Shown: piece by piece, positions 3,372 to 43,596 of the stretch | Layout of the letters: the number at the start of each line of letters is the position of its first letter | Numbering within the stretch: the stretch's first letter is position 1 | Source: Planctomycetota bacterium | Lineage (GTDB): Bacteria; Planctomycetota; Planctomycetia; Planctomycetales; Planctomycetaceae | Reading direction: 5' to 3' | DNA: 52,930 nt | Assembly: GCA_003670925.1 (NCBI GenBank) | Contig: QWQG01000201.1 | Span: 1 to 52,930, forward strand | The notes under the pieces: model-generated | What the model was told of the DNA's origin: nothing | Databases searched by the model: none | What the model saw: only the letters and a program-made list of their open reading frames with translations | Position numbers and translations under genes: made by a program

Positions 3372-5195
3372 ATGTCGTTCAAGTGCATTTATGATTTTGA
3401 TGTGGTGGTCGTGGGCGCCGGGCATGCAGGAACAGAAGCCGCCCTTGCCGCAGCGCGAATCGGGGCGAAGACGGCGCTTGTGACGATGAATTGCGACACC
3501 GTCGGGCAGATGAGTTGCAATCCAGCGATCGGGGGAATTGCGAAGGGACAGATTGTCCGTGAAATCGATGCGCTTGGCGGCGAAATGGGCCGCGTGATCG
3601 ATGCGACCGGGATTCACTTCCGGATGCTCAACAGCGGCAAAGGGCCAGCCATGCACAGTCCGCGCGCTCAGGCGGACAAAAAGGCATATCAATTTGAAAT
3701 GAAGAACCGGGTTGAACTGCAGGAGAATCTGACGCTCTGTCAGGAAACTGTTGAATCGATCGAAACAGACGGCGGAAAAATCACGGGCATCCGCGTCGCG
3801 GGTGATGCGTTGTACCGCGCCCGGGCTGTGATCCTGACGACCGGCACGTTTCTCAAAGCCATTATGCATACGGGCGAATCGAAGGCCGAAGGCGGACGAG
3901 CCGGTGACAAGGCGTCGCATGGGGTTTCAGGCGCATTGACGTCCCTGGGCTTTGAGCTGCGGCGTTTCAAGACCGGCACTCCCGCCCGTTTGAATGGTCG
4001 CACGATCGATTTTACGCGCTGCGAACCTCAACCCGGCGATGAAAATCCCGAACCGTTTTCATTCATGAATGATCGGATTGAGCAGTCTCAGATTCATTGT
4101 TATCTGACAAGTACGACTCACGAAATCCACGAAATCATCCGCGCCAACCTGCACCGCGCCCCGATGTATTCGGGGCAGATTCAATCCACGGGACCGCGTT
4201 ACTGTCCCTCGATTGAAGATAAAGTCGTCCGCTTTGCAGATAAGACGTCGCATCAAATTTTTCTCGAACCGGAAGGCCGCAATACTCAAGAAGTTTATTG
4301 CAACGGGATCTCCACTAGCCTTCCACGCGATGTACAGGATGAGATTGTGCGGCGAATTCCGGGCTGTGAAAAAGCCCAGATCATGCGGTACGGTTACGCC
4401 GTTGAATACGACTTCGCACCGCCAACACAACTGTATCCGACGATGGAAACGCGCCTTGTGGAAGGGCTGTACTTCGCCGGCCAGATCAACGGCACCACGG
4501 GGTATGAGGAAGCTGCCGGACAAGGTCTAATGGCTGGTCTCAATGCCGCCCTGAAAATTCAGGGTAAGGGGCCGTTTGTGCTTGATCGCAGCCAAGCATA
4601 TTTGGGCGTTCTGATCGATGATCTCGTCACCAAAGGTGTTGACGAACCCTATCGAATGTTCACATCGCGTGCCGAATATCGCCTACTGCTCCGACAGGAT
4701 AATGCTGATCGAAGGTTGACACCGCTGGGAATTCAGATCGGCAGCGTGTGTCCCGCGCGGACGGATCGCTTTCGCCGTTATGAAGATAATCTGCAACAAG
4801 GATTTGCGGCGATGAGCAAGCTCCGGTCACTGGGGGCCACGCTGGAAGAATGGCTGCGCCGTAACACGATCACATGGGACGAAGTCTATCAGCAGTTTCC
4901 GCAACTGACTGAGTTGAACCTGACCGTCAACACTCGGCGACAAATGATGATCGAAGCGCAGTATGCCGGCTACGTCCGGCGTCAGGAGACCGACATCGCA
5001 CGACTGCAAAAAGTAGATTCTGTCCGGATACCTGAGATATTTGACTATCTTGCCGTACCACAACTGCGTCACGAAGCGAAAGAAAAACTCACCCGCCTAC
5101 GTCCCGTCACTGTCGGCCAAGCCAGCCGTGTGAGCGGGATCACACCAGCGGATATCGCGATCCTAATGTTCTATTTGAAACCGTCAAGCAGTTGA
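3372..5195 (+). CDS. mnmG: tRNA uridine 5-carboxymethylaminomethyl modification enzyme MnmG (GidA)
   Basis: A 607-residue protein beginning with the FAD-binding Rossmann motif GAGHAGTEAA (about residues 14-23) and containing the family signatures GQMSCNPAIGGIAKG and GEMGRVIDATGI, plus TGYEEAAGQGLMAG and MFTSRAEYRLLLRQDNAD. The C-terminal helical region ends near SRVSGITPADIAIL, which matches the MnmE-interaction and tRNA-binding part of the family. MnmG works with MnmE (not in this window) to install cmnm5U at wobble uridine 34. The length is close to the usual 620-630 residues. The start is an ATG with an AGGAG about 15 bases upstream, rather far for a Shine-Dalgarno. The TPR gene follows on the same strand and may share transcription. 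Confidence 0.96.
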   Translation: MSFKCIYDFDVVVVGAGHAGTEAALAAARIGAKTALVTMNCDTVGQMSCNPAIGGIAKGQIVREIDALGGEMGRVIDATGIHFRMLNSGKGPAMHSPRAQADKKAYQFEMKNRVELQENLTLCQETVESIETDGGKITGIRVAGDALYRARAVILTTGTFLKAIMHTGESKAEGGRAGDKASHGVSGALTSLGFELRRFKTGTPARLNGRTIDFTRCEPQPGDENPEPFSFMNDRIEQSQIHCYLTSTTHEIHEIIRANLHRAPMYSGQIQSTGPRYCPSIEDKVVRFADKTSHQIFLEPEGRNTQEVYCNGISTSLPRDVQDEIVRRIPGCEKAQIMRYGYAVEYDFAPPTQLYPTMETRLVEGLYFAGQINGTTGYEEAAGQGLMAGLNAALKIQGKGPFVLDRSQAYLGVLIDDLVTKGVDEPYRMFTSRAEYRLLLRQDNADRRLTPLGIQIGSVCPARTDRFRRYEDNLQQGFAAMSKLRSLGATLEEWLRRNTITWDEVYQQFPQLTELNLTVNTRRQMMIEAQYAGYVRRQETDIARLQKVDSVRIPEIFDYLAVPQLRHEAKEKLTRLRPVTVGQASRVSGITPADIAILMFYLKPSSS

Positions 5196-5363: not shown

Positions 5364-8300
5364 ATGTTTGACGTTGAATTTCGACGTGTGACCCTAATTT
5401 GTCTAGCCTCTGGCCTTCTGTTGACTAGGCTCACGGCCACCGCGGTGCACGGGGAAGAAACCGTTCAGGGCACGAGGCAGTTTGCCGTCGCTGTCGGGTT
5501 TCAAAATCAAAAACTCTACGAATCCGCGATAGACGAGTGGAACACGTTCCTCCAGAAATTCCCCGAAGATTCGCGCGTCGATAAAGCAACACACTATCTG
5601 GGAACCTGTCAGCTTCAGGCCAAACAACTTCCAGCTGCAGCAGCGACGTTTGAATCGGTTTTGCAGCAGTATCCTAAGTTCGAATTGCTCGACCAATCTA
5701 TTTTAAACCTTGGCACTGCATGGTACAGTCAGGCTCAGGACTCAAAGAAACAGGAAGACTATGCGAAGGCCGAAAGTTCGTTCACTCGGCTCGCGACGGA
5801 ATTTCCAAAAAGCCCTTATGCTGGTCGAGCGCTCTACTATCGCGGCGAGACCCAGTACCAGCAAAACAAGCTGGACGAAGCTGCCGTCAGCTATGCGGCG
5901 TTAACGAATACATTTCCCACAGACGAACTTGTACCAGACGCGACGTATGCATTGGGTATCTGTCAGGAAGCGTTGAAAAAGAATGACGATGCGGTGGCGA
6001 CGTTTGCTCGATTCGAAGCCAACTTTCCGCAACATGCATTGCTGGCTGAAGTGAAAATGCGACATGCGGAACTTCTTTTTAGCGCTACAAAATTTGATGA
6101 GGCCCAAGGACTATTCGCGCAGATCAGCGGCGTTAAAGACTTTCCGCTGGCCGACACCGCCATGTTGCGTCAGGCGCGTTGTCTCTATGAACTCAAAAAA
6201 TACGACGAGGCCGGTAATCTGTACTGGAATGTGCCGCGCCAGTTCACACAGTCGAAGCACTACGACATCGCGGTGTTGGCTGGTGCGAAATGCTTCTACT
6301 TGGCCGGTAAGTACGAACGTGCTCGATCTGGTCTTGAAAACGTTGCGAAACGCGATGTGCCTGAAGCAGCCGAAGCCTGTCAATGGATTGGACGTTCACT
6401 GCTGAAGGAAAACAATCCCCAAGAGGCCTTGAAGGTCCTTGATGCGGCCATTGCTAAACACGGATCAAATCCCACGTTTCCACAACTGGTGCTGGCTCGG
6501 ATTGACGCGTTGTACGAACTTCCTGATCGCCGGGTAGAAACGGTTCCGTTATACGCTGAGTTCTCTCAAAAATACCCTCAAGATGAACTGGCCGCGCAGG
6601 CACAGTATATGTCAGCGCTGACGGCCTTGGAATTCGACAAGCATGCAACAGCAAAGGTCAACTGCGATGCTTTCGCGCTGCGATTCCCCAAGGATCCCCT
6701 GCTGCCGGATGTGCTGTTCATTGGTGCCGAAGCGCGGCTTTTACTGGGGGAATTTGCGGAATCGGAACGTCTGTACCGCGATTTTCTGACGCGAGTTCCG
6801 CAACATCCCAACGCGGCACAAGCGCGAGTTCGCTTGGGGCTCGCCTTGCAACTGGACGGCCGGAACAAAGATGCCCTCGCAGAACTTGAGGCGACGCTGA
6901 GTAGTCTTTCCGAGGCGGCTTTGAAGAGCGAAGCCCTGGCAATCATGGGACGTTGTCAGGTCGCCGAGAATCAGCTGGACAAAGCTGCCGGGGCGTTCGA
7001 ACAGTCACTTGCGGCAAAGCCAGATCGCCCCCAGTCAGACCAGACGCTGCTGACCCTCGCAGATGTCTATCGTCGCCTTGAACGAGCTTCCGATTCGGCC
7101 GTACGACTGGAGCAGTTGAAACGCGAATTCCCGAAAAGTTCGCTCGTCGAAGAAGCGACGTTTCGACTTGGCGAAGCAGCTTATGCAAAGAGCGCATTTG
7201 ATCAGGCAATCAAGCAGTATACCGTTGTCGTCAACACGTGGCCGGCAGGCACGTTTGCACCACACGCGCAGTATGGTCTTGGCTGGTCTTACTTCAAACA
7301 GCAGGATTTCGCGAAGTCGGTAGCGGCCACGAAAACGCTGGCCGATCGTTACGGAAAATCGGATCTGGCCCCGAAGGGGATGTACGTTCGCGCGATGGCG
7401 CAATATCAACTCGGCCAGTTTGCCCCTGCAGTCGATGATGTGCGGGCATTCCTGAATAGCAAACCGCCTCAAAAAGATGCCTTAGACGCCGAGTATCTCT
7501 TGGGACTGTCGTTTGCGGCCCAGCAAAAGTTTGCGGAAGCCGCTCAGACCTATGCCGAAATCTTGGTAAAAGATTCAATGTATGCCGAGGCTGACAAGGT
7601 CTTGTATGAACTTGGCTGGGCACATTTTGAATTGATGCAGCGCAAAGAATCGAGTGCTGCATTTCGTCGTTTGGGAACTCAGTTTCCTGACAGTCCATTC
7701 GCGGCTGAAAGTTGGTTTCGGGTAGGCGAAGCATACTACGATGCCGGTGAATTTCTGGAAGCCGTGAATGCATACACGGAAGCCCAAGCCAAAGCGGGAG
7801 CAACTGCCAGCCAAGAAATTGGTGAAAAAGCCGCGCATAAACGAGGCTGGAGTTTTCTCAAAGCAAACGACTTTGCCGAAGCGACGAGGGCCTTTGAAAC
7901 GCAGTTGAAATCATATCCCGGAGGACCGTTGTCTGGCGACGCGCAATTTCTGTTGGGCGAATGTCTGTATAAACAGAAACAGTGGCAATTGGCGCTGCCG
8001 CATTACGCTTCTGTCATCGCTGCGAATCATCCAACTTATAATGCATTGGCGTTATATCGCTCTGGCGAGTGTGCCGCAGCATTAGAGCAGTGGGATGAGA
8101 GCGGTCGATTTCATCAGCAGGCTCTGGATGGTTTTCCCGAGTTTGAACTCAAACCGGAGGCCCGGTACGGAGTCGGTTGGTCCTTGCAGCAACGGAATAA
8201 GCTGGCGGAAGCAATTCTTTACTATGAAAAAGTGACGGAGGAAACAGAAACAGAAACGGCCGCCAAAGCCAGATTTATGATCGGCGAATGCTATTTCTCA

Positions 8301-8516
8301 CAGAAGAACCACAAGGAGGCGACAAAGCACTTTCTCAAGGCAGCGTTTGCATACGGTCACAAAGAATGGTCTGCGATGGCGTGGTTTGAAGCAGCGCGCT
8401 GTTTTGAAGTTCTGCAAGATTTGGCTCAGGCAAAGAACTGTTATCAGCAGATGATCGAGAAATTCCCCGATCATCCGAAAGTGGCCGATGCCAAAAAAAG
8501 ACGAGGCGAACTGTAA
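5364..8516 (+). CDS. Secreted tetratricopeptide-repeat protein of an ExbB/ExbD gene cluster
   Basis: The ATG at 5364 gives a 1050-residue protein starting with a clear signal peptide (a hydrophobic run near residues 8-22, then AVHGEE). The frame is open back to a GTG at 5196, directly after the mnmG stop, but that extension is not hydrophobic and would bury the signal. The rest is almost entirely TPR-type helix pairs with recurring patterns such as Y..A...F..L...FP.SP.A..A.y..Ge. Many repeats carry the 'FP' turn seen in outer-membrane lipoprotein and YbgF/CpoB-like TPRs. It lies upstream of exbB, exbD and the toroid protein, so a role as a periplasmic scaffold for a Tol/Ton-like complex is a reasonable inference, comparable to CpoB of the Tol-Pal system. 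No enzymatic motif was seen. Confidence 0.85.
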   Translation: MFDVEFRRVTLICLASGLLLTRLTATAVHGEETVQGTRQFAVAVGFQNQKLYESAIDEWNTFLQKFPEDSRVDKATHYLGTCQLQAKQLPAAAATFESVLQQYPKFELLDQSILNLGTAWYSQAQDSKKQEDYAKAESSFTRLATEFPKSPYAGRALYYRGETQYQQNKLDEAAVSYAALTNTFPTDELVPDATYALGICQEALKKNDDAVATFARFEANFPQHALLAEVKMRHAELLFSATKFDEAQGLFAQISGVKDFPLADTAMLRQARCLYELKKYDEAGNLYWNVPRQFTQSKHYDIAVLAGAKCFYLAGKYERARSGLENVAKRDVPEAAEACQWIGRSLLKENNPQEALKVLDAAIAKHGSNPTFPQLVLARIDALYELPDRRVETVPLYAEFSQKYPQDELAAQAQYMSALTALEFDKHATAKVNCDAFALRFPKDPLLPDVLFIGAEARLLLGEFAESERLYRDFLTRVPQHPNAAQARVRLGLALQLDGRNKDALAELEATLSSLSEAALKSEALAIMGRCQVAENQLDKAAGAFEQSLAAKPDRPQSDQTLLTLADVYRRLERASDSAVRLEQLKREFPKSSLVEEATFRLGEAAYAKSAFDQAIKQYTVVVNTWPAGTFAPHAQYGLGWSYFKQQDFAKSVAATKTLADRYGKSDLAPKGMYVRAMAQYQLGQFAPAVDDVRAFLNSKPPQKDALDAEYLLGLSFAAQQKFAEAAQTYAEILVKDSMYAEADKVLYELGWAHFELMQRKESSAAFRRLGTQFPDSPFAAESWFRVGEAYYDAGEFLEAVNAYTEAQAKAGATASQEIGEKAAHKRGWSFLKANDFAEATRAFETQLKSYPGGPLSGDAQFLLGECLYKQKQWQLALPHYASVIAANHPTYNALALYRSGECAAALEQWDESGRFHQQALDGFPEFELKPEARYGVGWSLQQRNKLAEAILYYEKVTEETETETAAKARFMIGECYFSQKNHKEATKHFLKAAFAYGHKEWSAMAWFEAARCFEVLQDLAQAKNCYQQMIEKFPDHPKVADAKKRRGEL

Positions 8517-8622: not shown

Positions 8623-9636
8623 ATGGCAAACGTTAAGCAGAGATCCCAATGGATGATTGCGACTGTCGTCCTCGTGACGGTCTGCTGTGCAACGGCAACG
8701 TCGGTGTTGCAAGCGCAGGCCGATGCAACTGCCGACGGGATTGCTGCTGAACCTAGGACTCTGCAGGCTCCAAGCAAGAACGTGCCCGACGAAGTTGCGA
8801 ACGGATTGACACCGAATGTCGCGAGACAACCGTTACCGTTCCTGTGGGACTTAGCAATGCAGGGCGGCGTCTTTATGATCCCGATTGGATTGTGTTCGAT
8901 CGTCGTCTTAGCCTTTGGCCTTGAACGGCGTGTTGGATTGCAGAAAGGCCGAATTCTTCCCCGTGGTCTGCTTGTCGCTCTGCAAAAACTCAATCAACAG
9001 AACACGGGCATCGACCCACGCTTGGCGTACGATGAATGTCAGAAATATCGCTCCCCGCTGGGACGAGTCATTCAGGCGGCGATTTTGAAAGTCGGACGAC
9101 CGCATGCAGAACTCGAGAAAACCGTCGAAGATGCTGTGAGCCGGGAAGCGGATGAAATGGCTCAAAATATTCGTCCGATCAATATCACGGCCAGTGTGGC
9201 CCCGTTACTCGGCCTCTTGGGCACGGTGCAGGGCATGATTATGGCCTTCATGGTGATGAGTACCACCGCTGCCTCAGGGACGGCGAAGGGTCAGGAACTG
9301 GCACAGGGAATTTACACCGCATTGGTGACCACGTTCGCCGGTTTATGTGTGGCGATTCCGGCTATCATTATTGCCAATTTATTAGAAGGCCGCATCGAGC
9401 GACTGCTCCGCGGGATGGAAGATGTGTTCAACGAAATTCTGCCGCTGTTCGAACGCTTTGAAGGCAAATGGCGCGTGACGATGAAGAGCGATGCTTCGGG
9501 AGTCGTTCTTAAGGGGACAAATTCTAAACCAGACATGTTGGCATCTTCCAAGTCGGGCGATTCCGAATCGAAGACTCGAAAACCAACACAACCTGTGGCG
9601 ATTGCAGAAGGGAACGAACAGGCACAGTTGCCTTAG
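8623..9636 (+). CDS. MotA/TolQ/ExbB proton channel family protein
   Basis: A 337-residue protein from the ATG at 8623. A TTG at 8581 would add 14 residues ahead of what looks like an N-terminal signal or membrane segment. After a roughly 45-residue extracytoplasmic stretch come TM1 (about 80-100), a cytoplasmic loop, TM2 (about 190-212, with VAPLLGLLGTVQGMI, the family hallmark) and TM3 (about 232-256, ALVTTFAGLCVAIPAI). This is the ExbB/TolQ fold, which with ExbD/TolR forms a proton-motive-force-driven stator in the inner membrane. The C-terminus after TM3 is long, charged and Ser/Lys-rich. The ExbD-like gene follows after 71 bases. The long N-terminal extension before TM1 is common in planctomycete homologues. 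Which of ExbB or TolQ it is cannot be decided. Confidence 0.92.
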   Translation: MANVKQRSQWMIATVVLVTVCCATATSVLQAQADATADGIAAEPRTLQAPSKNVPDEVANGLTPNVARQPLPFLWDLAMQGGVFMIPIGLCSIVVLAFGLERRVGLQKGRILPRGLLVALQKLNQQNTGIDPRLAYDECQKYRSPLGRVIQAAILKVGRPHAELEKTVEDAVSREADEMAQNIRPINITASVAPLLGLLGTVQGMIMAFMVMSTTAASGTAKGQELAQGIYTALVTTFAGLCVAIPAIIIANLLEGRIERLLRGMEDVFNEILPLFERFEGKWRVTMKSDASGVVLKGTNSKPDMLASSKSGDSESKTRKPTQPVAIAEGNEQAQLP

Positions 9637-9707
9637 GGTCCGGTTTAGCCCGCATCCTGATCAAACAACCCGTAGCGCCATTTCGCTGATACGACAGAAG
9701 CAGATCC

Positions 9708-10166
9708 ATGCGATTCCGATTCAAAAACCGTTACGCCAGTAGACGCAACATTGACATGACGCCGATGATCGACTGCGTCTTTCAATTGTTGCTGTTCTTT
9801 ATGGTGGCCAGTCGGTTTGAGGAAGAAGCAAAAGTGTCGGGTGAAGGTGCGTTGGATGCACATCTACCGGACGCTGTCGCAGCGATGCCGATGGTGATGC
9901 GCCCGAAAGAGATGATCGTCAATGTGAATTCTCGCGGCGAGTTCTACATCGGCGGTGAAATGCATTCGGAAGCTCAATTGGGCGAACGACTGCAGAGGGC
10001 GGAACTCAATAATCCTGGGAATCAGCCGGTCGTGATCCGAGGCGATGAGCGATCGGACTGGAAGTACATCGCCCGTGTGATGAGTCTGTGCAATCAGGCA
10101 AAGATTCGCGACTATCGTGTGGCAGTGCTGCCCCCGGATGAAATCAAGGAGGGTGGTGGTCCATGA
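9708..10166 (+). CDS. ExbD/TolR-type biopolymer transport protein
   Basis: A 152-residue protein with a short basic N-terminus, one membrane helix containing MTPMIDCVFQLLLFFMV, and a periplasmic domain of about 115 residues. Asp22 in the helix corresponds to the essential proton-carrying aspartate of ExbD/TolR. The periplasmic part includes the usual 'vVIRGDERSDWKYIARVM..C..A' pattern of the domain. It should sit inside the pore of the ExbB-like pentamer and couple proton flow to movement of a third protein. Its stop codon overlaps the start of the next gene (ATGA at 10163-10166), so the two are probably translated together, which ties the toroid protein to the complex. Confidence 0.93.
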   Translation: MRFRFKNRYASRRNIDMTPMIDCVFQLLLFFMVASRFEEEAKVSGEGALDAHLPDAVAAMPMVMRPKEMIVNVNSRGEFYIGGEMHSEAQLGERLQRAELNNPGNQPVVIRGDERSDWKYIARVMSLCNQAKIRDYRVAVLPPDEIKEGGGP

Positions 10167-13100
10167 GGGATCTTGTCCGGATTGCAGATAACGACTTGAA
10201 GGAACTCACTCCGAGCCACCTTCTGCGGATCTTCACAGCCTGCTCCATGGCTGTGGCGTGCGGGGTCTTCGCACTCCAAGGTATGGCCATTTTATTCACG
10301 GACGAGAACTTTGTGCCTCTGCCGGGGATGAATCAACTGTCCGGGCAGGTCGCGTGGGCGACGGCGTTAGTGGCAATGCTGGGCGGCGTCACGTTTCTGG
10401 TACGTGGTGTCATAAAACGCCGCCTGCAGTGGGCAATTGCGATCAGTCTGCTCATCCATTTTTTGCTCTGTCTGTCAGTCTCCGGGGTCCAATTTCGCGG
10501 ACCACGACTGCCGCCGGTAGCTGTCGCCGAATCGCTTGGCGCGACGCCGGAAGAGTTCACCTTGCCAGACTATGCGGGCGACGACACACCAAATTCCGAT
10601 GCGGTATGGAAGCAGCAAACTGACACTTCAACGCCGGAGAACGATGTTGCTGTTGCCCACACAGAAATGGCGATTGCCGAAGCAGACAAGCCACAACCCA
10701 TCGACACGCCACAGGCTCTGCCCGTCGAGAAAGTCGAGACTCTGGAACGCCAAGAACAAGTCATACTCGCCGCCGACACCGCAGCGGAAATAGCCCGTCA
10801 GGCAAAAGAAAGTGATTTGCCACCGCAACAGCAAATCGCCGCACCAGACGTGGCGCCAACCGAGATTGCGGAGCCCCTGCTGGACGTGCAATTGGATCAG
10901 GCGAAACAATCCAGTGAAACACCAATGATCGAGCGTGAACAGACTGAAGTCGCGTCCGCAACTCAGCTGCTAGCGTCCGCTAAATTAGAGGCTCAGCGCG
11001 TTGAAACGGCGAGCAGCCCGGAAGACGTGCAGGCTAACATGGCCGCGAAAAAAAACACCGAGTTCGAGGCGGCGATGGCTGCCACTGAAGACGTGAAAGT
11101 GGCCACCTCTGACGCGCGACAAATAGAGGTGCGGGAACAACAGCTTGAGCTTGCCCGGCAGCAGGCGGCAGCGGCATCGGAATCGACCGATAGCCCTGCC
11201 ACGAACGAAAAGTCGCTGTCTGCTACTAGTCCTGCGGTAAGTCGCGTGAAGCCAGCACGAGGGGCGGGGATTGGTGTTCCATCGGCAATAGCTCCGACAG
11301 CTGGTGGAGGAGTCTCAATCGCGCGCAGCAGGGCAAAAGCGAACGCAGCCACAGGGAACGCAGATGCGGAACACATGGAAGTCTCATCTGTTCCCGGGGT
11401 CAGTGCGCCAGCGATGTCTGAGTCGTCTGCGTCCACATCCCAGCGACGCGGCGCTGCGGCTACAGTGCCAGTCGGGGCTAACGCGGGCGGATCCTCCACG
11501 GCTGCGGGTGCTGGTCAGTCGCAAGGACAAATTTCCGGAACTACAGTCGCCAGATCAACAAAAGGCGGCAATCAACCGGCGATCGGAGATCCCAATGGAC
11601 AACCGGCGACGACCGGACGCGGCGAAGGTCGCAGGGCCGATGCCGTAGGGACGACCGCCAATGAAGTCGGAGTTAAGGCAGCGGGTGGCAACGTTACAAA
11701 GAACGGAGAAGGCATGATTGTCGGGCCTGCTGGGACTGCAGTTGGGCGGAGTACAAACGGCCTTGCTCCACGATCGGAGGCAAACGGAAGTGTCAGCGGT
11801 CCGTCAAGTCCTGCGTCGTCTGCTGGTGCGCCAGCCGGACCTACACGGTTATCATCTGCAGCAGGAGCGGGACAGGGAACAGAACCAAGTGCTCTGCTGA
11901 AGGCTGATGTTGGATTCGCGAGGAGCACAAATTCTGGACGTGCGGTGTCGCGGTCTTCTGCTGCGGTGGCCAGTCTGCCTGTGGGGGCTGCTGCTGCCGA
12001 ACAGGGCGGCACACTAGTGTTTGCAGGGCCGCAGGCGGCAGCGAGTGGCGTGATGACAGCGAGCAGTGGTTTGCCCGCGCCGCGTCTAAATTCAGTCCCA
12101 CGGCGAACCGCCGGATTGCCCGGTAGCAGCGCTCCCGCGACAGCCGCAGGTGCATCGCCGAGTGGTAATGCTGCGAAACAAGCACGAGTAGCCGTTGGCA
12201 GTCCCCGGGCCGGTGGTGGGACTAGGCAACCAACCTTAGTCTCGGCCGATGTCGTCGCGCGCATGCTTAAGAAGTCCGTGCCGGGACTTGGTGGATCTCC
12301 AGAAGCACGAATTGCAGACAGCCTGTCCATGCGAACTTCCGCCGCCCGGCGTGAAGCAGCTAAGACACTTGGCGGATCTCCTGAATCAGAAGAAGCAGTG
12401 GAGCGAGGACTCATCTGGTTGGCCCTAAATCAGTATCCCGATGGGCACTGGAGTATCAACGACTTCCCTGGTGAAGCCACCGCCGATATTGGTCAGGGCA
12501 GTTTTCGGGCCGACAGTGCCGCAACCGGACTCGCGTTACTGGCCTATCTCGGTGCGGGTTATACGCATCAGTCGGGAACGTACCAAGACGTTGTGAAACG
12601 CGGCGTGACTTGGTTGATGAATGGTCAGAAACCAGACGGCGATCTCTTTGCGGACGAATCTGATTTCGTCTGGTTTTACAGTCACGGCATGGCTGCCATT
12701 GCCCTGTGTGAGGCGTACGGACTTACGAAGGATGTCGCGTTGAGAGAGCCAGCACAACGGGCGTTAAACTTCATTATTGAATCACAGCATCCTGAATTTG
12801 GCGGCTGGCGATACCGACCCAAATTTGAATCTGACACGTCTGTCTCCGGCTGGCAATTGATGGCGTTGAAGAGCGGAGAAATGTCTGGTCTGATCGTGCC
12901 GCAAGACGCCTATGAACGTGTCGGCAAGTGGTTGAATTCGGTGCAAAGCAAAACATCTGCCGGGCAGTTCAGCTATCACCCTTCGCGTGACGCGAGTCCA
13001 ACCATGACGGCAGAAGGCTTGCTGATGCGCCAGTATCTGGGAGCCAAACGCGATGACGCGCAGTTGATCGCTGGAGCAAATTTCCTGAGCACTCGGCTGC

Positions 13101-13381
13101 CGGATTTTGGCCAGCGTGATTCGTACTATTGGTACTATGCGACTCAAGTCATGTTCCACATGCAGGGAGAACACTGGAGTCTTTGGAACAGCAGTCTCCG
13201 CGATTCGCTGGTAGAGACACAAAGCACTCACGGCACTGGTAATGGCAGTTGGGATCCCGGGGGCCCGACGCCCGAAAAATGGGCCAGCGCGGGTGGGCGG
13301 CATTACGTGACGTGCTTGAATCTATTGATGCTGGAAGTTTACTACCGGCACTTGCCGCTGTATCTGGAACTTGAAAAATGA
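10163..13381 (+). CDS. Membrane-anchored linker-toroid protein (prenyltransferase/squalene-cyclase-like repeats), TonB/TolA-like layout
   Basis: A 1072-residue protein overlapping the exbD-like gene by four bases. Three hydrophobic segments lie near residues 22-45, 62-84 and 88-108, so the remainder should be periplasmic if the N-terminus is cytoplasmic. The third helix contains S95-LLI-H99, the same SxxxH spacing as the Ser16/His20 pair of E. coli TonB. Residues about 120-350 are Gln/Ala/Glu-rich and probably helical. About 350-730 is Ala/Gly/Ser/Thr-rich and carries recurring ARSTKG, GRSTNG and ARSTNS motifs. From about 740 to the end are alpha-alpha repeats with GLIWLALNQYPDGHW, GVTWLMNGQKPDGDLF and ALNFIIESQHPEFGGWRY, typical of the terpenoid-cyclase/prenyltransferase toroid. 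No catalytic DxDD of squalene-hopene cyclase was noticed, so binding rather than catalysis is likely. The energy-transducer role is an inference. Confidence 0.85.
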   Translation: MRDLVRIADNDLKELTPSHLLRIFTACSMAVACGVFALQGMAILFTDENFVPLPGMNQLSGQVAWATALVAMLGGVTFLVRGVIKRRLQWAIAISLLIHFLLCLSVSGVQFRGPRLPPVAVAESLGATPEEFTLPDYAGDDTPNSDAVWKQQTDTSTPENDVAVAHTEMAIAEADKPQPIDTPQALPVEKVETLERQEQVILAADTAAEIARQAKESDLPPQQQIAAPDVAPTEIAEPLLDVQLDQAKQSSETPMIEREQTEVASATQLLASAKLEAQRVETASSPEDVQANMAAKKNTEFEAAMAATEDVKVATSDARQIEVREQQLELARQQAAAASESTDSPATNEKSLSATSPAVSRVKPARGAGIGVPSAIAPTAGGGVSIARSRAKANAATGNADAEHMEVSSVPGVSAPAMSESSASTSQRRGAAATVPVGANAGGSSTAAGAGQSQGQISGTTVARSTKGGNQPAIGDPNGQPATTGRGEGRRADAVGTTANEVGVKAAGGNVTKNGEGMIVGPAGTAVGRSTNGLAPRSEANGSVSGPSSPASSAGAPAGPTRLSSAAGAGQGTEPSALLKADVGFARSTNSGRAVSRSSAAVASLPVGAAAAEQGGTLVFAGPQAAASGVMTASSGLPAPRLNSVPRRTAGLPGSSAPATAAGASPSGNAAKQARVAVGSPRAGGGTRQPTLVSADVVARMLKKSVPGLGGSPEARIADSLSMRTSAARREAAKTLGGSPESEEAVERGLIWLALNQYPDGHWSINDFPGEATADIGQGSFRADSAATGLALLAYLGAGYTHQSGTYQDVVKRGVTWLMNGQKPDGDLFADESDFVWFYSHGMAAIALCEAYGLTKDVALREPAQRALNFIIESQHPEFGGWRYRPKFESDTSVSGWQLMALKSGEMSGLIVPQDAYERVGKWLNSVQSKTSAGQFSYHPSRDASPTMTAEGLLMRQYLGAKRDDAQLIAGANFLSTRLPDFGQRDSYYWYYATQVMFHMQGEHWSLWNSSLRDSLVETQSTHGTGNGSWDPGGPTPEKWASAGGRHYVTCLNLLMLEVYYRHLPLYLELEK

Positions 13382-13475: not shown

Positions 13476-14645
13476 TTAGATCTGTTCAGGTGCTTTGTCG
13501 GTGAATTCAAAGACCACGAGGATCGGTGTTTTTTGAGCTCGTGCCGACTGAACAGATGAGACTTCGGCTGGCGGCACAGCGACTTTTTTGGCTGTCACGG
13601 ATAGACCAGCGGCTTTGTCGAGGGGCTTGGTGTTAGCCTCGACAGCGTCGCTCTGGGCGACCAGAGATTCTGAGGCAGCAGCCAGAGGTTTTGTGGATTT
13701 CGGCAGTGTCATGTACACTTGGCCAAAGTGCAGTTCGGAGTGCGTGGGAGTCTTCATGGATTCTTGCATGCCACGAATGAGACTTTCACGCGTTGAATCG
13801 GCAACCGAGCGAGGATTCCAGTCGGCGGATTGTGGATTCGTTTCAGAAATAACACTGTCGATGAAGGCTTTGTCATCAACACCGGTCGATGTGAATAGCA
13901 CGCCAAACCGAGCATCGTGATCGTCGTTGCCGACCACCGCTTGGATGTCCATGCCATGCTTTGCCACGAGTGATTCAATAATCCGCATGACTTCTTCGCG
14001 GTCTTTTGAATTGACAGTCACAACGACAATGCTCCACTTATCATTTTCGATGAAAGGTCGCATTTCTTCCTGCGGCACAATCGAATCCTGCTCAACGAGA
14101 GTGGACAGTTCGTCTACTTGGGCTTCGCTGCTGACAGCGACTTTCGCGGTCACCACCTCATCTGCAGCCGCGATGTTCACGGACATGTCAATGTCGAGCT
14201 TTCTGGCGAGACGCTGATCACTTTCTGGCGAAATCGGTGCCATGCCACCGGCAAGTGCGAAGACTTCAACGGCGCGCGGGGGCTGCAGGAGCAGTAACGT
14301 CGCGGCGCAGGCCGTGACGGAAACGGCCACGATCCCACGTATGATCCAGCCACGATTTGTCTTGGGTGCTGAAATGGGGGAGATCATTGTCGATGACTGC
14401 TGGAGAGCAGCATGCACCGAGGACACGAATGATGCGGACACCCGTTTAACTGGCAGTGCTTTCAATTGATCTCGCAAGCCTGCCATGGCTGCCAGATAGC
14501 TCCGATAAACGTCCGTCCGGAGGAACGCGGCCAATTCAGCGGCTTCTTCTGGCTGCAGATCGCCGTCCAACTGCCGTGACAAAAGCAACTGAATCCGTTC
14601 GGTTTCAGCAGGCTGACTGGATTTTGGATCTTGAGCAGAATTCAT
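13476..14645 (-). CDS. Anti-sigma-factor-like single-pass membrane protein (no zinc motif)
   Basis: A 389-residue protein. Residues about 15-60 (ERIQLLLSRQLDGDLQPEEA...) resemble the N-terminal anti-sigma helix-bundle domain, which usually starts with a 'LLS.YLDGEL..EE' pattern; the zinc-binding HxxxCxxC of many family members is absent. One membrane helix lies at about 101-121. The roughly 270-residue C-terminal part, presumably extracytoplasmic, has no recognised domain. By family analogy it would hold an ECF sigma factor at the membrane until a signal arrives. No ECF sigma gene is adjacent: upstream on the same strand is purU and downstream is the convergent toroid gene. The assignment rests on a short motif plus topology and is moderate. 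Confidence 0.5.
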   Translation of the reverse strand: MNSAQDPKSSQPAETERIQLLLSRQLDGDLQPEEAAELAAFLRTDVYRSYLAAMAGLRDQLKALPVKRVSASFVSSVHAALQQSSTMISPISAPKTNRGWIIRGIVAVSVTACAATLLLLQPPRAVEVFALAGGMAPISPESDQRLARKLDIDMSVNIAAADEVVTAKVAVSSEAQVDELSTLVEQDSIVPQEEMRPFIENDKWSIVVVTVNSKDREEVMRIIESLVAKHGMDIQAVVGNDDHDARFGVLFTSTGVDDKAFIDSVISETNPQSADWNPRSVADSTRESLIRGMQESMKTPTHSELHFGQVYMTLPKSTKPLAAASESLVAQSDAVEANTKPLDKAAGLSVTAKKVAVPPAEVSSVQSARAQKTPILVVFEFTDKAPEQI

Positions 14646-23035: not shown

Positions 23036-26000
23036 ATGAGAACGCTGATCCCGATTGTCGTTTTGTTCGCTATAACCGTCACCATTCCGATGAGCTTGCA
23101 AGCTACGGATGAGGAGGGCGTGCAGTTCTTCGAACAGAAAATTCGCCCGGTGCTTGTGCAGCATTGTTATGGTTGCCACTCGGTTGAAGCACTGGATAAA
23201 AAGAAACTCCAAGGCGACTTGTATCTCGATACGGCCGCTGGAGTTGCTGCTGGCGGCGAGTCAGGCAAAGCGTTGGTAGTCAAGGGAAAATCAGCGGAGA
23301 GTCTGCTGCTCAAAGCCCTCATGTATGACGGCATCGAAATGCCCCCCACGGGTAAGCTACCCGCCGAAGTGATCGCCGATTTTGCAAAGTGGATCGATCT
23401 TGGAGCATCTGATCCGCGAGATGGCGCGGCTGCGATTAAACCGAAGCGCGAGATCAACCTTGCGGAGGGCAAGCAATGGTGGGCGTTCCAGCCGTTGCAA
23501 GAGGTGGCGTTACCTGACGTGCCGAAGCCAATCGATGGATTCATTCGGCAGGCTCAGGAGATGCAGGGGTTGAAACCGAATCACCCTGCGGACAAAGAGA
23601 AGCTGATCCGGCGGGCGTGCTTTGACCTAATTGGTCTGCCGCCGACACCGGAACAAGTGGCTGCGTTCGTGGCGGACACCTCGCCGCAGGCGTTTGAAAA
23701 GGTGATCGATGAACTGCTGGCGAAGCCGGCGTATGGTGAGCGATGGGCGCGTCACTGGCTTGACGCCGCACGCTTCGCCGAGAGAGGTGGTTATGAGTTT
23801 GACGGTTTTCGGCCGGGAGCCTATCACTACCGCGACTGGGTCATTCGGGCGCTCAATCAGGACATGGCTTATGACCAGTTCGTGCGGATGCAGTTGGCTG
23901 GCGACGTGCTGGCTCCTGATGAAATGGCAGGCGCTGCGGCCACGGGATTTCTTGTGGCCGGGCCATATCCCGGACAGATCACGGCCAAAACGGTCGAGCG
24001 AATTCGATATGACCAACTTGACGACATGATGATGACAATTGGTGGCTCAATGTTGGGGCTGACATTGGGCTGTGCGCGGTGTCATGAACATAAATACGAT
24101 CCTATTCCGCATCAAGATTACTATGCGTTGGCGGCATCCTTGGCCCAAACGGCGCACGGCCCGCGGACGCTTGATCTCGATGAGGCCACAACCGAAAGTG
24201 CGTTTGAGAAACATCAGGCTGAACAGGAACGCCTCGCGACGGCGTTGAATGCGTTTGCCACGCATGAACTACCAGCCCGCTTCACAGCATGGCAGGCTAG
24301 CGAACTGGCTAAGCAACCCGAAGTTACGCGCTGGCAGGCATTGGAGCCAATTGCCTTGGAAGCCGAACGATCTTGGCTAAAGGAACTGCCGGGCGGAATC
24401 ATCGCGCACGACGGCGTGTTGAATCCGGGGACGATTATTCAGACGCGTGGTCAGCGGCGGAATGTCCGCAATGAAGAACAGTATCGCCTGATATTCCAGA
24501 CGCATCAAAAGAATGTGCAATCACTACGTCTCGATGCGTTGAGCGACAAGTCGCTGCCAGAACGTGGGCCGGGGCTGAGCGGCGATGGAAGTTTTCAGCT
24601 TGTCGAGATCACAGTCACCGCTCGTCCCTTGGATCCGCAGTCTGGCGACGCCGCGCAAGTGGTGAAGCTGAAACCGGTTTTTGCGGCATTTGAAGATCAG
24701 GATCAGCCGCTGGCAAACGCCGTCGATCAAAAGCCTGAAACGGCATGGGTGGTGCGGACGACTGCGAAGAAAGATAACGCGGCGATCTTTGAATTTGAAT
24801 CGCCGCTTGCGGGTTTCGCCAATGGGACGGAGTTGGTCGTGGAAATGAAGTTTCGGGACTTTGGGATTGGCCGCCTGCGGATCGCACTCAGTGTCGAGCC
24901 GAACCCGGCGACATGGGCAGGAGATGTTGCACGTCAGCATGTGGGAGAACTCCGGGCGATTGTCGCCGCCCACAGCGGGGAGCTGCCCACTCAGGTACGC
25001 GTTCCTCTCGCTCGTTGGTTTGCGCCGTTCGATGCGGAAACGTCGAAGGTGTTTCTGCCATTGCGTGAGCATTCTGCGGCCGCACCGCGGCCAAATCTCC
25101 AAGAAGTTTATACCACGATCGCTGGCGGACAGGATGTATTCTTCCTGCGACGCGGTGAAGTCGATAACAAGCAGGACAAGGCGGAGCCGGGTTACCTTCA
25201 AGTGTTGTGGCGAAGTAGTGAACCAGCGAAACCCGCTGCAACTGCTGTGTCTGAAGCTCCTCGCGTATCACTGGCTAACTGGATGACCGACCTTGAACAC
25301 GGGGCCGGGCCGCTGTTAGCACGCGTAATCGTCAATCGTGTCTGGCAGCATCATCTGGGGAAGGGAATCGTGGGAACCCCGAATGACTTTGGAGTGCAGG
25401 GAGAACGTCCAACACATCCCGAACTGTTGGAGTATCTCGCCGCCGAACTTGTTCGCGGCGGCTGGAAGCTGAAGCCACTGCACCGCGCGATCATGCTCAG
25501 TGATGTCTATCAGCAATCACACGAAGTCGATTCTGACAATTTAAAGATCGACCCCGCCAATCGCACTTGGTGGCATTTTCAGCCGCATCGTATGGAAGCA
25601 GAAACCATCCGGGATGCATTGCTTGCCACCGGTGGAAATCTCGACCCCACAATGTTCGGGCCAAGTGTACTTGAAGACAGCCAGCGTCGAAGCATCTATC
25701 TCCGCGTGAAGCGGAGCGAGCTACTGCCGATCATGACGATGTTCGACGCCCCCGAGCCGACGCAAAGTATCGGCGAACGCAGTGTCACCACTGTCGCCAC
25801 GCAGGCTCTGGCAATGATGAACTCACCGCTGGTACGAAAACAGGCGGAAAAACTATTCGCGATGATCAAGCCAACTGCAGACGTTCCGTTGTCGACAGCC
25901 GTCGATCGCGGCTATCAGATCGCTTTTGGCCGGTTACCGACGTCCGCTGAGCAAATGCGGATGACGGCGTTCATCGAGCAACAGCGGTCCGCGATGGGCG

Positions 26001-26086
26001 GCGATCTCCCGGAGTCGACAGACAATGCGTTGATTGAATTCTGTCATGTGCTGCTTTGTCTGAATGAGTTTGTGTACATCGACTGA
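23036..26086 (+). CDS. Planctomycete cytochrome-c / DUF1549 / DUF1553 protein (PSD1 family)
   Basis: A 1016-residue exported protein. After a signal peptide (about 1-22) comes a planctomycete-type cytochrome c domain with IRPVLVQHCYGCHS, giving heme-binding Cys44, Cys47 and His48, and a probable Met ligand in DGIEMPPTGKLP. DUF1549 follows (DKEKLIRRACFDLIGLPPTPEQ, YGERWARHWLDAARFAE, GCARCHEHKYDPIPHQDYYA; a second CxxCH occurs here). A variable beta-rich middle section comes next. DUF1553 is at the C-terminus (LLARVIVNRVWQHHLGKGIV, GVQGERPTHPELLEYLA, SIGERSVTTVATQALAMMNS). Such proteins occur in many copies per planctomycete genome, nearly always followed by a DUF1501 gene, as here. Role: probably heme-dependent redox processing of extracellular polysaccharide or sulfated substrates; not proven for this copy. 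Confidence 0.93.
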   Translation: MRTLIPIVVLFAITVTIPMSLQATDEEGVQFFEQKIRPVLVQHCYGCHSVEALDKKKLQGDLYLDTAAGVAAGGESGKALVVKGKSAESLLLKALMYDGIEMPPTGKLPAEVIADFAKWIDLGASDPRDGAAAIKPKREINLAEGKQWWAFQPLQEVALPDVPKPIDGFIRQAQEMQGLKPNHPADKEKLIRRACFDLIGLPPTPEQVAAFVADTSPQAFEKVIDELLAKPAYGERWARHWLDAARFAERGGYEFDGFRPGAYHYRDWVIRALNQDMAYDQFVRMQLAGDVLAPDEMAGAAATGFLVAGPYPGQITAKTVERIRYDQLDDMMMTIGGSMLGLTLGCARCHEHKYDPIPHQDYYALAASLAQTAHGPRTLDLDEATTESAFEKHQAEQERLATALNAFATHELPARFTAWQASELAKQPEVTRWQALEPIALEAERSWLKELPGGIIAHDGVLNPGTIIQTRGQRRNVRNEEQYRLIFQTHQKNVQSLRLDALSDKSLPERGPGLSGDGSFQLVEITVTARPLDPQSGDAAQVVKLKPVFAAFEDQDQPLANAVDQKPETAWVVRTTAKKDNAAIFEFESPLAGFANGTELVVEMKFRDFGIGRLRIALSVEPNPATWAGDVARQHVGELRAIVAAHSGELPTQVRVPLARWFAPFDAETSKVFLPLREHSAAAPRPNLQEVYTTIAGGQDVFFLRRGEVDNKQDKAEPGYLQVLWRSSEPAKPAATAVSEAPRVSLANWMTDLEHGAGPLLARVIVNRVWQHHLGKGIVGTPNDFGVQGERPTHPELLEYLAAELVRGGWKLKPLHRAIMLSDVYQQSHEVDSDNLKIDPANRTWWHFQPHRMEAETIRDALLATGGNLDPTMFGPSVLEDSQRRSIYLRVKRSELLPIMTMFDAPEPTQSIGERSVTTVATQALAMMNSPLVRKQAEKLFAMIKPTADVPLSTAVDRGYQIAFGRLPTSAEQMRMTAFIEQQRSAMGGDLPESTDNALIEFCHVLLCLNEFVYID

Positions 26087-26161
26087 GAACAGTCTAAAGC
26101 ATCCCTGCCCACTGATCTTACTATTTCAGTCATGCGAGACCCTGCCCAGAAGGATCACTTT

Positions 26162-27616
26162 ATGTTTAACTTCTACTCCCCTGCCGAAATCTCTTTGCCA
26201 GCTCGACGCAGTTTTTTGCAGCAGGCAGGGCTAGGCTTCGGGTCAGTTGCACTTGCTAGCATGCTGCAGGGCGAAACAGTTGCGACTGCTGCGCATCCTG
26301 CTGATCCACTTGCACTCCGGGCACCGGATTTTCCGGGGCGGGTAAAATCGATCATTTGGTTGTTCATGACCGGAGCGCCCTCGCAGGTCGACACGTGGGA
26401 TTATAAGCCGGAGTTGCAGAAACGAAACGGCGAGCAGCTTGCCGGATCCGACCCCCAGACCGGGTTCTTCACGACGAGCGGCAAGTGCCTGAAGTCACCG
26501 TTCGCATGGGCGCAGTATGGGGAGTCTGGTTCTTGGGTCTCGGACCTATTTCCGCATCTTTCGCAGCACGTCGATAAGATGTGCTTTCTCCACTCGATGC
26601 ATCTGAAGCAAAACAATCACGCGCCAGCGTCTCTTGAACTGATGTGTGGCACCAATCGACCCGGACTTCCTGCGCTTGGGGCTTGGATGACATACGGCTT
26701 GGGATCACAGAACCAGAATCTGCCATCTTATGTGGTCCTCCATGACACGCGGCCGCGTGGGGACGATCAAATCTGGTCAGCTGGTTTCCTGCCCAAGACG
26801 TATCAGGCACTGACCCTCGATGCGCGTCGCAAGGAATCGATTGACAACCTCGCGCGCGATGGCAAACACTCCGATATTCAGCAGCGTGCGCAACTTGATC
26901 TGATCCGCGAACTGAATCAGACACACGCCACCGGCCGGCCAACTCAGGCCGATCTGGCGGCCCGAATCAACTCGTTCGAACTGGCATACCGGATGCAAAT
27001 GGCGGCTCCGGAAGCGCTTGACCTATCCCGAGAATCCGAAGAAACGCACAAATTGTACGGGATGGATCAGCCGGAGTGCGCCACCTTTTCACGGCAGTGT
27101 TTACTCGCGCGGAGGCTTGTCGAACGCGGCGTGCGGTTCGTGCAGATCTTTGCGGGCAAGGGCGTGGGCGGCGACGGCAGCGTCAACGACGTCCCATGGG
27201 ATTGTCACAGCGACGTAGAAACCAACCACCGATCTTGCGGCTTGCATACCGATCAACCGGCCGCGGCCTTGCTGGCGGATCTGGATGCCCGCGGACTACT
27301 CGACACAACACTCGTCATCTGGGGTGGGGAATTCGGTCGCACTTCCGATTCGCAGGGCGAAAAGGGACGCGATCACAACCCCAATGGGTTCACGATTTGG
27401 ATGGCCGGAGCGGGCGTCAAAGGTGGCTTCCACTACGGCGCTACCGATCCCTTCGGCTACAAGGCGGTAGAAAACAAAGTCAACGCCAACGACCTCCACG
27501 CTACGCTGTTACATTTGCTGGGGCTAGAGCACACAAAGCTCACGTACCGATTCAATGGCCGTGATTACCGTCTGACCGACGTGGGTGGTGAGGTGCTCAA
27601 AGATATCCTTACCTGA
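26162..27616 (+). CDS. DUF1501 protein, Tat-exported, partner of the DUF1549/1553 protein
   Basis: The ATG at 26162 is preceded by AAGGA with seven bases spacing and is preferred over an ATG at 26132; it gives 484 residues. A twin-arginine signal starts at Arg15-Arg16 (RRSFLQQAGLGFGSVALAS). DUF1501 signatures follow: [108 protein letters not shown], and a C-terminal LLGLEHTKLTYRFNGRDYRLTD. DUF1501 belongs to the alkaline-phosphatase/sulfatase-like clan. Tat export suggests it folds or gains a cofactor in the cytoplasm. It starts 75 bases after its partner and is clearly one operon with it. Confidence 0.93.
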   Translation: MFNFYSPAEISLPARRSFLQQAGLGFGSVALASMLQGETVATAAHPADPLALRAPDFPGRVKSIIWLFMTGAPSQVDTWDYKPELQKRNGEQLAGSDPQTGFFTTSGKCLKSPFAWAQYGESGSWVSDLFPHLSQHVDKMCFLHSMHLKQNNHAPASLELMCGTNRPGLPALGAWMTYGLGSQNQNLPSYVVLHDTRPRGDDQIWSAGFLPKTYQALTLDARRKESIDNLARDGKHSDIQQRAQLDLIRELNQTHATGRPTQADLAARINSFELAYRMQMAAPEALDLSRESEETHKLYGMDQPECATFSRQCLLARRLVERGVRFVQIFAGKGVGGDGSVNDVPWDCHSDVETNHRSCGLHTDQPAAALLADLDARGLLDTTLVIWGGEFGRTSDSQGEKGRDHNPNGFTIWMAGAGVKGGFHYGATDPFGYKAVENKVNANDLHATLLHLLGLEHTKLTYRFNGRDYRLTDVGGEVLKDILT

Positions 27617-38271: not shown

Positions 38272-39732
<1,461 letters not shown>

Positions 39733-41614: not shown

Positions 41615-43519
41615 GTGGATCAGAGTTTTGGAAATGACTTCAAGGAGCTTGTTCGGTCCAGCACGAATATCGTGGATCTGGTATCTGAAGTCGTGGCTCT
41701 CAAACCGCTGCACGGTGGGCGGGACTTTGTGGGATTGTGTCCGTTTCACGACGACAAAAATCCTTCGTTTCACGTGTATCCAGATCGACAGTCGTATCGT
41801 TGCTGGGTGTGTGACGCCGGGGGAGATTGTTTTCGTTGGGTGATTGAAATTGAACGAGTTCCGTTTCCGGAAGCATTGGAGTCTCTTGCGCGGCGGGCCC
41901 GGCTAGAAGTTCCCAAACATGCACGGAGTGGGGGATCACACGAAAACATAAGCCGGAAAACAGATTCGTTGGTTGTTGTCGAATGGGCCGTCAACCTGAT
42001 GAATCAAACGTTGCGGACCGGACCAACGGCAGACAATGCGCGACAGTATGTTCTCAAGCGAAAACTGTCGGATGAAACAGTAAATCATTTCAAGCTGGGA
42101 TATCACCCAGAGGACTGGAACTGGTTCCTTGAAAAGGCACGAGGAAAATTTACTCCGGCCCAACTCGTGTCTGCCGGCTTGATTCAGGAAAGGAACAACG
42201 GACCTGGGTACTTTGACAACTTAGTTGGTCGTCTGGTGTTTCCGATTTTTGATGAACGCGGCCGGCCTGTGGCGTTTGGAGGACGAGTGTTGCCCGGAGG
42301 CAACATTGAGAGCGACGCGAAATACTGGAACAGTGTTGAGAGTGCAATTTTCCAAAAACGCCGAATGTTGTTTGCCTTTGACCGAGCCCGGGAGGCGATT
42401 CGGAAAAGCAAAACCGCGATCATCGTAGAAGGATATATGGACTGCATCGCCTGCCATCAGGCGGGCATCATGAATGCCGTAGCGACTCTCGGGACGGCAA
42501 TGACTGAAGAACATGTCCGTTTTTTGCGGCGTTTCGCCGAAAAAGTCGTCTTGGTCTATGACAGTGATGACGCAGGGCAACAGGCGGCAGAACGGTCAAT
42601 CTCGCGATTTCTTGCACAGGATTTAGATCTTCGTGTCCTAAATGTTCCGTCAGGCAAGGATCCTGCGGATTACCTTGAAGCACATACGTCACAGGAATTC
42701 TACAAGCTCATCGAAGGGGCTGCTGAGGCGTGGGAATACAAGTTGCAATCGGTTCTAAGGCGTACGGACTCAGGTTCTGTAGCCGGGCGTCAGCAGATTT
42801 TGAATCACATGCTGGATTTTCTTGCAGAGTCGCAGGGACTGTCCGGCACTGTTCGTGAAGACATTATTTTGCGCAATGTGTGTTGGCGAGTTCAGGTCGA
42901 TGAACGCACGGCACGACAGCAATTGAATGAGCTGCGAAGTAAGAAGAAAAAGGGGGGAATTTTTCGTCGTGATTCTGACCGGATTTCGGCGGAGTTTGCA
43001 CCACGTCCCGAGAACGCAATTGAGCGTGCGGAACGGGAGATGCTAGAGATTATTTTGACATGTCCAGAAACCATCGACTTGATTCAGCACCATATTGGGG
43101 CGGATGATTTCGAAAATGTACGACATCGGCGGCTGCTGGCGTTGTGCATCGACCTGTGGAAGGAAGATGGAGACCTTCCAGAATTGAGCCGTTTGATCAT
43201 TGCAGCGGAATCAGACTCAGATCTCTTAAGTCTGATCAATGCAGTGGTGGATACGGCAGAGGAGAAAGGTATCTTCAGACTCATGACGGATCAGCCGAAC
43301 CGTGATGAGCAACCTGAGACTTCGGTCCCAGACCATCTAGAACGGGTCCTTGGGCCAATTCTGGAACGGCGAGAAAAACGACTGAACCTCGTGTCGAAAC
43401 AAATTCTGTCTCAATCGGCCAAGCCGTTGAGCGAACTCGACGACGACATAAAAGACGCGCTCCGCCGGCTTTACAATTTTCGTCAAAGTCAAATGGGTCA
43501 TCCTTCTTCCATGAAGTAA
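41615..43519 (+). CDS. dnaG: DNA primase DnaG
   Basis: A 634-residue protein from a GTG at 41615, with GGAG about six bases upstream. The N-terminal CHC2 zinc domain is complete: CPFH (Cys42, His45) and CWVC (Cys63, Cys66). It is followed by the catalytic RNA polymerase domain with [18 protein letters not shown], and the TOPRIM motifs [17 protein letters not shown] (about 268-284) and [16 protein letters not shown] (about 314-329). The C-terminal roughly 180 residues are helical and correspond to the DnaB-binding domain, though their sequence is divergent. The enzyme makes RNA primers for replication. It is followed by rpoD after 77 bases, as in the classic rpsU-dnaG-rpoD operon, but rpsU is not upstream here. 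Confidence 0.97.
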
Positions 43520-43596
43520 GACAGTTGTCACTTGATGTGACATTGTTCGCCATCATCACACATCAATCGACGACTCAAAACCACAGGAGTTTGAAT

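Follow-up and report, generated by a model that had tools for sequence, protein, structure and literature searches.

A toroid-headed protein encoded behind exbB and exbD as a putative TonB/TolA-like transducer in planctomycetes

What does an ExbB/ExbD motor act upon when the gene that follows exbD encodes a protein without the C-terminal domain of TonB or TolA? The question is raised by a 52,930-nucleotide stretch of planctomycete DNA (Planctomycetota bacterium, assembly GCA_003670925.1, contig QWQG01000201.1, positions 1 to 52,930 of the forward strand; hereafter the window), in which genes for an exbB/tolQ-like and an exbD/tolR-like subunit are followed by the toroid gene (10163..13381, + strand), whose product of 1072 amino acids (aa) combines N-terminal helices, a long linker and a C-terminal alpha/alpha toroid. 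This toroid protein is probably a TonB/TolA-like proton-energised transducer, with the toroid in place of the outer-membrane-binding domain. A preliminary description of the locus, made from the sequence alone, had cast it as the energised partner of ExbB/ExbD, a role supported by gene order across related loci, by the conservation of one histidine column, by the predicted topology and by the absence of a detectable TonB C-terminal domain from the host genome.

The exbB/tolQ-like motor subunit gene (8623..9636, + strand; 337 aa) matches PF01618 (MotA_ExbB) at 8e-29, and the exbD/tolR-like gene (9708..10166, + strand; 152 aa) matches PF02472 (ExbD) at 5.3e-22, the aspartate of its TPMID motif being Asp22. 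The two open reading frames (ORFs), exbD at 9708-10166 and the toroid gene at 10163-13381, confirm the four-base overlap described earlier, and the sequence AAGGAGG precedes the start of the toroid gene at this junction. Three hydrophobic N-terminal helices (10220..10489, + strand; residues about 20-109), likewise noted before, were recovered by hydropathy (about 20-45, 62-84 and 88-109) and in a low-confidence AlphaFold2 model of residues 1-150 (helices 3-14, 16-44, 59-82 and 86-106; predicted local distance difference test, pLDDT, 70.1; predicted template modelling score, pTM, 0.37). They are followed by the low-complexity linker (10499..12337, + strand; residues 113-725), which counts 613 residues where about 620 had been claimed, and is rich in Ala, Glu, Gln and Pro, then in Ala, Gly and Ser (Ala 19%, Ser 11%, Gly 10% overall). 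The toroid itself occupies 12368..13378 (+ strand; residues about 736-1072, by AlphaFold2 and Foldseek).

A further feature lies in the third helix, where Ser95 (10445-10447) and His99 (10457-10459) form a Ser-x3-His motif (10445..10459, + strand) at exactly the SxxxH spacing that had been read from the sequence. According to passages of PMC12215075 and PMC8928145, the corresponding E. coli positions are Ser16/His20 in TonB and Ser18/His22 in TolA. For comparison we used 80 loci, the best 80 matches of one scan of genome contigs, all titled as Planctomycetota or planctomycete genera; 12 of the main toroid ORFs were cut by a contig end and 68 were complete at the 5' end. The N-termini were aligned in 72 rows (the window plus 71 rows from 70 loci, including a separately read piece of L086), 12 rows without an N-terminal helix having been dropped. 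The column of His99 holds His in 64 rows, Asn in six and Tyr in two, and that of Ser95 is always occupied by a small residue (Ser 55, Ala 7, Cys 5, Gly 5), so that a looser rule, a small residue followed by three residues and then His or Asn, fits 70 of the 72 rows, the remaining two having Tyr. After thinning to 60 rows, the His column has the lowest entropy of helix 3 (0.67 bit) and the Ser column the next lowest (1.19 bit). Mapped on a toroid-only tree, the His column changes state at least seven times, as far as can be read from a quick tree with many open forks in which two long branches meet. The Asn-for-His proteins adjoin detected exbB and exbD in L121, L130, L136 and L143, and part of exbD in L125 and L137. 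Going by the title of work by Swayne and Postle from 2011, Asn is said to substitute fully for His20 of TonB.

The motif is more frequent in these proteins than chance would give. Among 316 background gene-like ORFs with one to three hydrophobic segments, SxxxH falls within such a segment in six, one of which is the broken toroid gene of L086. Of the other toroid ORFs, 45 are complete at the 5' end and 44 of those contain a hydrophobic segment (a signal peptide in some); SxxxH lies inside it in 33 of the 44, and a few ORFs, at least, follow exbD. Enrichment over background by Fisher's test amounts to p ~1.5e-37 for the aligned homologues and ~3.5e-31 for the other toroid ORFs, values to be taken as indicative, because the aligned sequences share ancestry and the stretches searched are not quite equal in length from set to set. 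The remainder of the SHLS pattern is not kept: its Leu (H+7) and second Ser (H+11) correspond to V106 and Q110 in the window, and both columns are variable; in Ton, too, they are less conserved, according to passages of PMC12215075. L045, an exception to SxxxH, carries Asn where Ser is expected. As a separate observation, the toroid gene at L086:7600-11020 is broken, its N-terminal part lying in a different frame from the remainder.

Loop 2 carries more positive charge than loop 1 in 59 of the 64 rows with three helices by hydropathy. Positively charged loops being cytoplasmic, helix 3 is therefore predicted to leave the cytoplasm and the toroid to be periplasmic, as in TonB; the positive-inside rule thus speaks against a cytoplasmic toroid. 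The estimated linker length in 68 rows ranges from 116 to 1832 residues (median 615.5). Nine proteins (L062, L063, L106, L125, L126, L128, L133, L146 and L151) carry a PD40 (WD40-like) propeller between helices 1 and 2, in the first predicted periplasmic loop, and these are all nine of the scanned proteins with such a wide helix spacing. The propeller is suggestive of TolB, a propeller protein of Tol-Pal.

Both hallmarks of an ExbB/ExbD (TolQ/TolR) motor, the membrane Asp of ExbD and the pore threonines of ExbB, are present. A profile of 13 ExbB rows matched solved TolQ at 9.5e-23 and solved ExbB at 3.8e-16, and T201 and T236/T237 are nearly invariant (at least 90% across the 13 sequences). 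ExbD Asp22 is kept in 15 of 15 sequences; among 62 ExbD ORFs neighbouring toroid genes, the 60 that reach the membrane Asp all keep it and the other two are cut. A serine matching the ExbB Ser34 that TonB touches in cryo-EM occurs in 47 of the 48 rows with a residue at that position (52 rows aligned), although L149, among the 47, seems misaligned. L100 alone has Ala instead of this helix-1 serine, and its adjoining toroid protein has Tyr for the docking His, a single case that may be due to chance.

Gene order was counted in loci with enough upstream sequence; the sets of regions share some contigs (e.g. L087/L056, L106/L059 and L125/L064). Upstream of the toroid gene, exbD lies no more than 1 kb away in 60 of 64 loci; exbB is present in 50 of 58 and a gene for a tetratricopeptide repeat (TPR) protein in 40 of 47, and the complete set of three was likewise seen in 40 of 47. 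Neighbour clustering revealed no fifth conserved gene of comparable frequency on the same strand: the TPR cluster covers 44 loci, that of exbB 45 and that of exbD 42, whereas the two clusters ranking next (14 and 13 loci) belong to the opposite strand. Similarly, in the first 40 regions, 17 of the 18 toroid ORFs of at least 900 aa have a same-strand exbD upstream (at 4.8 kb in L063), L061 reaching the contig end. Twenty further phylum-wide regions, picked for longer ORFs, contain TPR-exbB-exbD upstream of the toroid gene in L207 and L208 and exbD upstream in L216, L217 and L218. The last three, together with L046 and L081, represent a second sub-family, 744-809 aa long, in which the second of two N-terminal helices carries SxxxH and the gene directly follows exbD. 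The toroid gene comes first in L224, a distant planctomycete related at phylum level only, where it (9137-10813) is followed by exbB (10827-11609) and two exbD genes (11688-12194 and 12253-12726).

The C-terminal alpha/alpha toroid of the preliminary description is borne out by the predicted fold. The sequence match is weak (SQHop_cyclase_C, PF13243, 2.5e-6, with residues 739-827 as the best stretch; 27.2 bits against a cut-off of 26.1). An AlphaFold2 model of 372 residues, by contrast with that of the N-terminus, reached a pLDDT of 90.4 and a pTM of 0.90, with 15 helices listed, 12 of them between model residues 40 and 357. Foldseek matched it to alpha/alpha toroids and barrels including AprG, squalene-hopene cyclases, MstE, GH76 mannanases and sugar epimerases, with a best E of 3.9e-6 (AprG) and query-length TM-scores of 0.48-0.64 among the 50 matches listed. 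The toroid alignment comprised 65 sequences, namely the window and 64 of 82 homologous toroid ORFs, near-duplicates and cut ones having been removed by hand. Across the 12 toroid helices, positions below 0.3 bit make up 32 of 96 on the even-numbered helices versus five of 89 on the odd-numbered ones. The even-numbered helices would correspond to the inner ring, judging from the usual build of this fold, and such alternate-helix conservation suggests a conserved central cavity. Invariant residues of the toroid include Tyr839, His841, Glu850, Asp891, Ser893, Tyr988, Tyr991 and Arg1046.

DxDD and zinc-site residues, which had been named as features to look for in the toroid, did not turn up. Neither DxDD nor HExxH occurs in any of the 65 sequences. 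The zinc site of the prenyltransferase beta subunit is formed by conserved Asp, Cys and His; a conserved zinc-type Cys site was not found in the toroid, where the window's two cysteines, Cys849 and Cys1051, are kept in 57 and 14 of the 65 sequences, no structural superposition having been made. Since DxDD is absent and a zinc-type cysteine is not kept, the known toroid chemistries are unsupported, and a terpene cyclase or prenyltransferase identity was rejected on the same two grounds.

In the window's genome (completeness 99.5%), ExbD gave 10 matches and the OmpA domain two, and an Omp85 protein is present; searches with TonB_C, TonB_2 and Plug at E 0.001 gave no match in it. Among 59 relatives, TonB_C was detected in 10 and Plug in 15, and the toroid operon occurs in some of these genomes as well.

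Several of these and further results weigh against the toroid protein as an energised transducer. Because TonB_C and the toroid operon coexist in some relatives, toroid proteins do not everywhere simply take the place of TonB. Just four of 17 other genomes of the same genus, several of them incomplete, yielded close orthologues (E below 1e-180); the system therefore looks accessory, which argues against an indispensable role. The expected conservation of SxxxH held for the histidine, which varies less than any other position of the helix (His in 64 of 72 rows), and failed for the strict motif, which is present in just 49 of 72 rows, two rows having Tyr at the His column. Two other toroid proteins of the window's genome, L042 and L044, have a hydrophobic helix without the motif. 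In cryo-EM (cryogenic electron microscopy), Ser16 and His20 of TonB touch Ser34 and Trp38 of ExbB, according to passages of PMC12215075; the tryptophan that contacts TonB is found in none of the 49 ExbB rows with a residue at that position, in a stretch where the alignment to solved ExbB is weak (2.8 bits). The exbB-exbD-toroid order, also expected to be conserved, is so in the close long family, from which L116 (1.2 kb available), L155 (2.9 kb), L122 and L141 are the four of 64 loci where exbD was not found upstream. It does not extend to most of the shorter toroid genes or of the phylum-wide regions: among 23 toroid ORFs below 900 aa (one an 80-aa fragment, one cut), exbD lies directly upstream in two (L046 and L081) and TPR-exbB in one (L071), as far as single-sequence searches, which may miss distant exbB and exbD, can tell, and 14 of the 20 phylum-wide regions show neither exbB/exbD nor the TPR arrangement in the available sequence. 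The operon is therefore characteristic of the long family and of a few other toroid genes rather than of the superfamily.

Could the toroid be a periplasmic enzyme or binding protein that is not pulled at all, helix 3 merely docking to ExbB, or an ExbBD switch opening or positioning the pocket? The near-invariant residues on alternate helices (32 of 96 versus five of 89 positions below 0.3 bit) are what a functional cavity would produce, and the Foldseek neighbours are chiefly enzymes (AprG, terpene cyclases, GH76 and epimerases). However, a conserved pocket fits either reading, the catalytic signatures DxDD, HExxH and a conserved zinc-type Cys are missing, and linkers of hundreds of residues (median 615.5) suit reach or force better than a switch; we regard this explanation as unlikely, though the likeliest of the rivals. 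Clearly less plausible is that the toroid protein shares the operon without being a client of the motor, SxxxH being an inherited feature of an anchor helix with no docking role. The many toroid genes away from exbBD that still carry SxxxH show the motif to be independent of gene neighbourhood, as this explanation would have it. A histidine is, on the other hand, costly in a hydrophobic helix, and yet its column is the least variable one and admits only Asn or Tyr as replacements. Moreover, TonB and TolA can also function with the motor of the other system (cross-complementation, in passages of PMC12215075).

That this is a conventional Ton or Tol system whose TonB or TolA has diverged is highly improbable. 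The motor genes and the YbgF-type TPR matches do resemble Tol-Pal, but there is no TonB_C or TonB_2 match in the toroid protein or the genome at the threshold used, and the C-terminus is predicted with high confidence as an all-helical toroid, unlike the TonB/TolA domain. A plain TonB or Tol-Pal system was discarded on account of this predicted fold. An anti-phage motor of the Zorya type was also rejected: ExbB alone gave a weak ZorA match (7.7e-4), and the exbD, toroid and TPR proteins gave none.

On the favoured reading, in which the toroid protein is an energised transducer, helix 3 would pass from the cytoplasm to the periplasm and dock on the exterior of the ExbB pentamer via His99, assisted by the small residue at position 95. 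Proton flow through ExbB/ExbD, involving ExbD Asp22 and the ExbB threonines, would energise the toroid protein, and its disordered linker of about 600 residues could transmit a pull or movement over a wide and variable periplasm. The toroid may then use its surface, or the conserved cavity at its centre, to engage a target, whether the periplasmic TPR partner or something at the cell wall or the outer membrane. As the product of the third conserved neighbouring gene, the TPR protein is a plausible partner. It may serve as the scaffold that the preliminary description envisaged, its gene being kept beside exbB in 40 of 47 loci.

With TonB and TolA the toroid protein shares Ser-x3-His in an inner-membrane helix, a long linker, a C-terminal domain and an ExbB/ExbD or TolQ/TolR motor. 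It differs in that the motif lies in the third helix instead of the first, that the SHLS Leu and second Ser are not kept, that a plug-domain receptor was undetected in the window's genome, and that the TonB/TolA C-terminal domain is missing, for which reason it is not classed as TonB or TolA. A closer parallel is provided by von Willebrand factor A (vWA) proteins with SHLS helices from the PVC group, which passages of Williams-Jones et al. 2025 (PMC12204202) propose as a new class of force transducer and whose genes often follow a TPR gene, tolQ and two tolR genes. An SHLS-type helix, a disordered linker, a globular domain unrelated to TonB/TolA and the TPR-tolQ-tolR context are common to both, as described in those passages. 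Theirs have a vWA fold, two tolR-like genes and in many cases a linker of about 100 residues, whereas the protein of the window has an alpha/alpha toroid, one exbD, 613 linker residues and three N-terminal helices. The toroid family thus follows the plan of the vWA transducers but carries another head and a far longer linker and has a single exbD. Squalene-hopene cyclase C-terminal domains and other toroids (GH76, AprG) share the fold class and a weak sequence match, whereas the window's toroid lacks DxDD and is membrane-anchored at the end of a long linker. Among the matches listed from open-licence PMC literature, titles and abstract starts describe no toroid-headed transducer.

Should this reading prove true, the TonB/TolA C-terminal domain would be just one among several heads open to a 5:2 proton motor, and planctomycetes, whose envelope is unusual, would provide a large natural collection of exchanged heads and of linkers reaching about 1800 residues. 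These bacteria may then power envelope work by an undescribed route, and a testable function would be gained for a common planctomycete family to which profile libraries give no closer label than squalene-cyclase-like. Since homologues carry Asn at the His column in several branches, a role of the TonB His in docking rather than protonation becomes testable as well. More tentatively, and with less than even confidence, we suggest that many planctomycete proton-driven envelope motors operate without TonB/TolA and instead with multi-copy toroid-headed transducers, some of them encoded beside a dedicated motor while others use one in common; given the conserved pocket, the motor might drive a cycle of grip and release, or of catalysis, far across a wide periplasm, and one branch, with PD40 in the first periplasmic loop, might join TolA-like and TolB-like parts in one chain.

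The TPR protein gene (5364..8516, + strand) encodes 1050 aa counted from its likely ATG, within an ORF open from a GTG at 5196. Its N-terminus is signal-like as judged by eye, and many TPR families of Pfam match it, as does TIGR02795 (YbgF-type TPR; 5.5e-118, 13 stretches). Like CpoB/YbgF of Tol-Pal, it is a periplasmic-type TPR protein encoded beside TolQ/TolR-like genes and matched by TIGR02795; CpoB/YbgF is, however, short (the CpoB model has 263 positions), whereas the window's protein has 1050 residues of repeats and its gene lies upstream of the motor, TPR matches being unspecific. The exbB gene is nested in a longer ORF beginning with TTG at 8581, and its product has a signal-like N-terminus plus an N-terminal extension.

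The operon is bordered upstream by mnmG (GidA; 3372-5195, + strand), the end of which directly adjoins the TPR ORF, and downstream by a converging gene (13476-14645, - strand) whose product contains a hydrophobic segment and weakly resembles an anti-sigma zinc finger (E 0.033); a relative adjoins the orthologous operon in L051. Farther along, the window contains planctomycete-type PSCyt1/DUF1549/DUF1553 and DUF1501 genes (23036-27616 and 38272-39732), as expected of planctomycete DNA, and, at 41615-45246 (+ strand), a DnaG primase gene closely followed by a sigma-70 factor gene.

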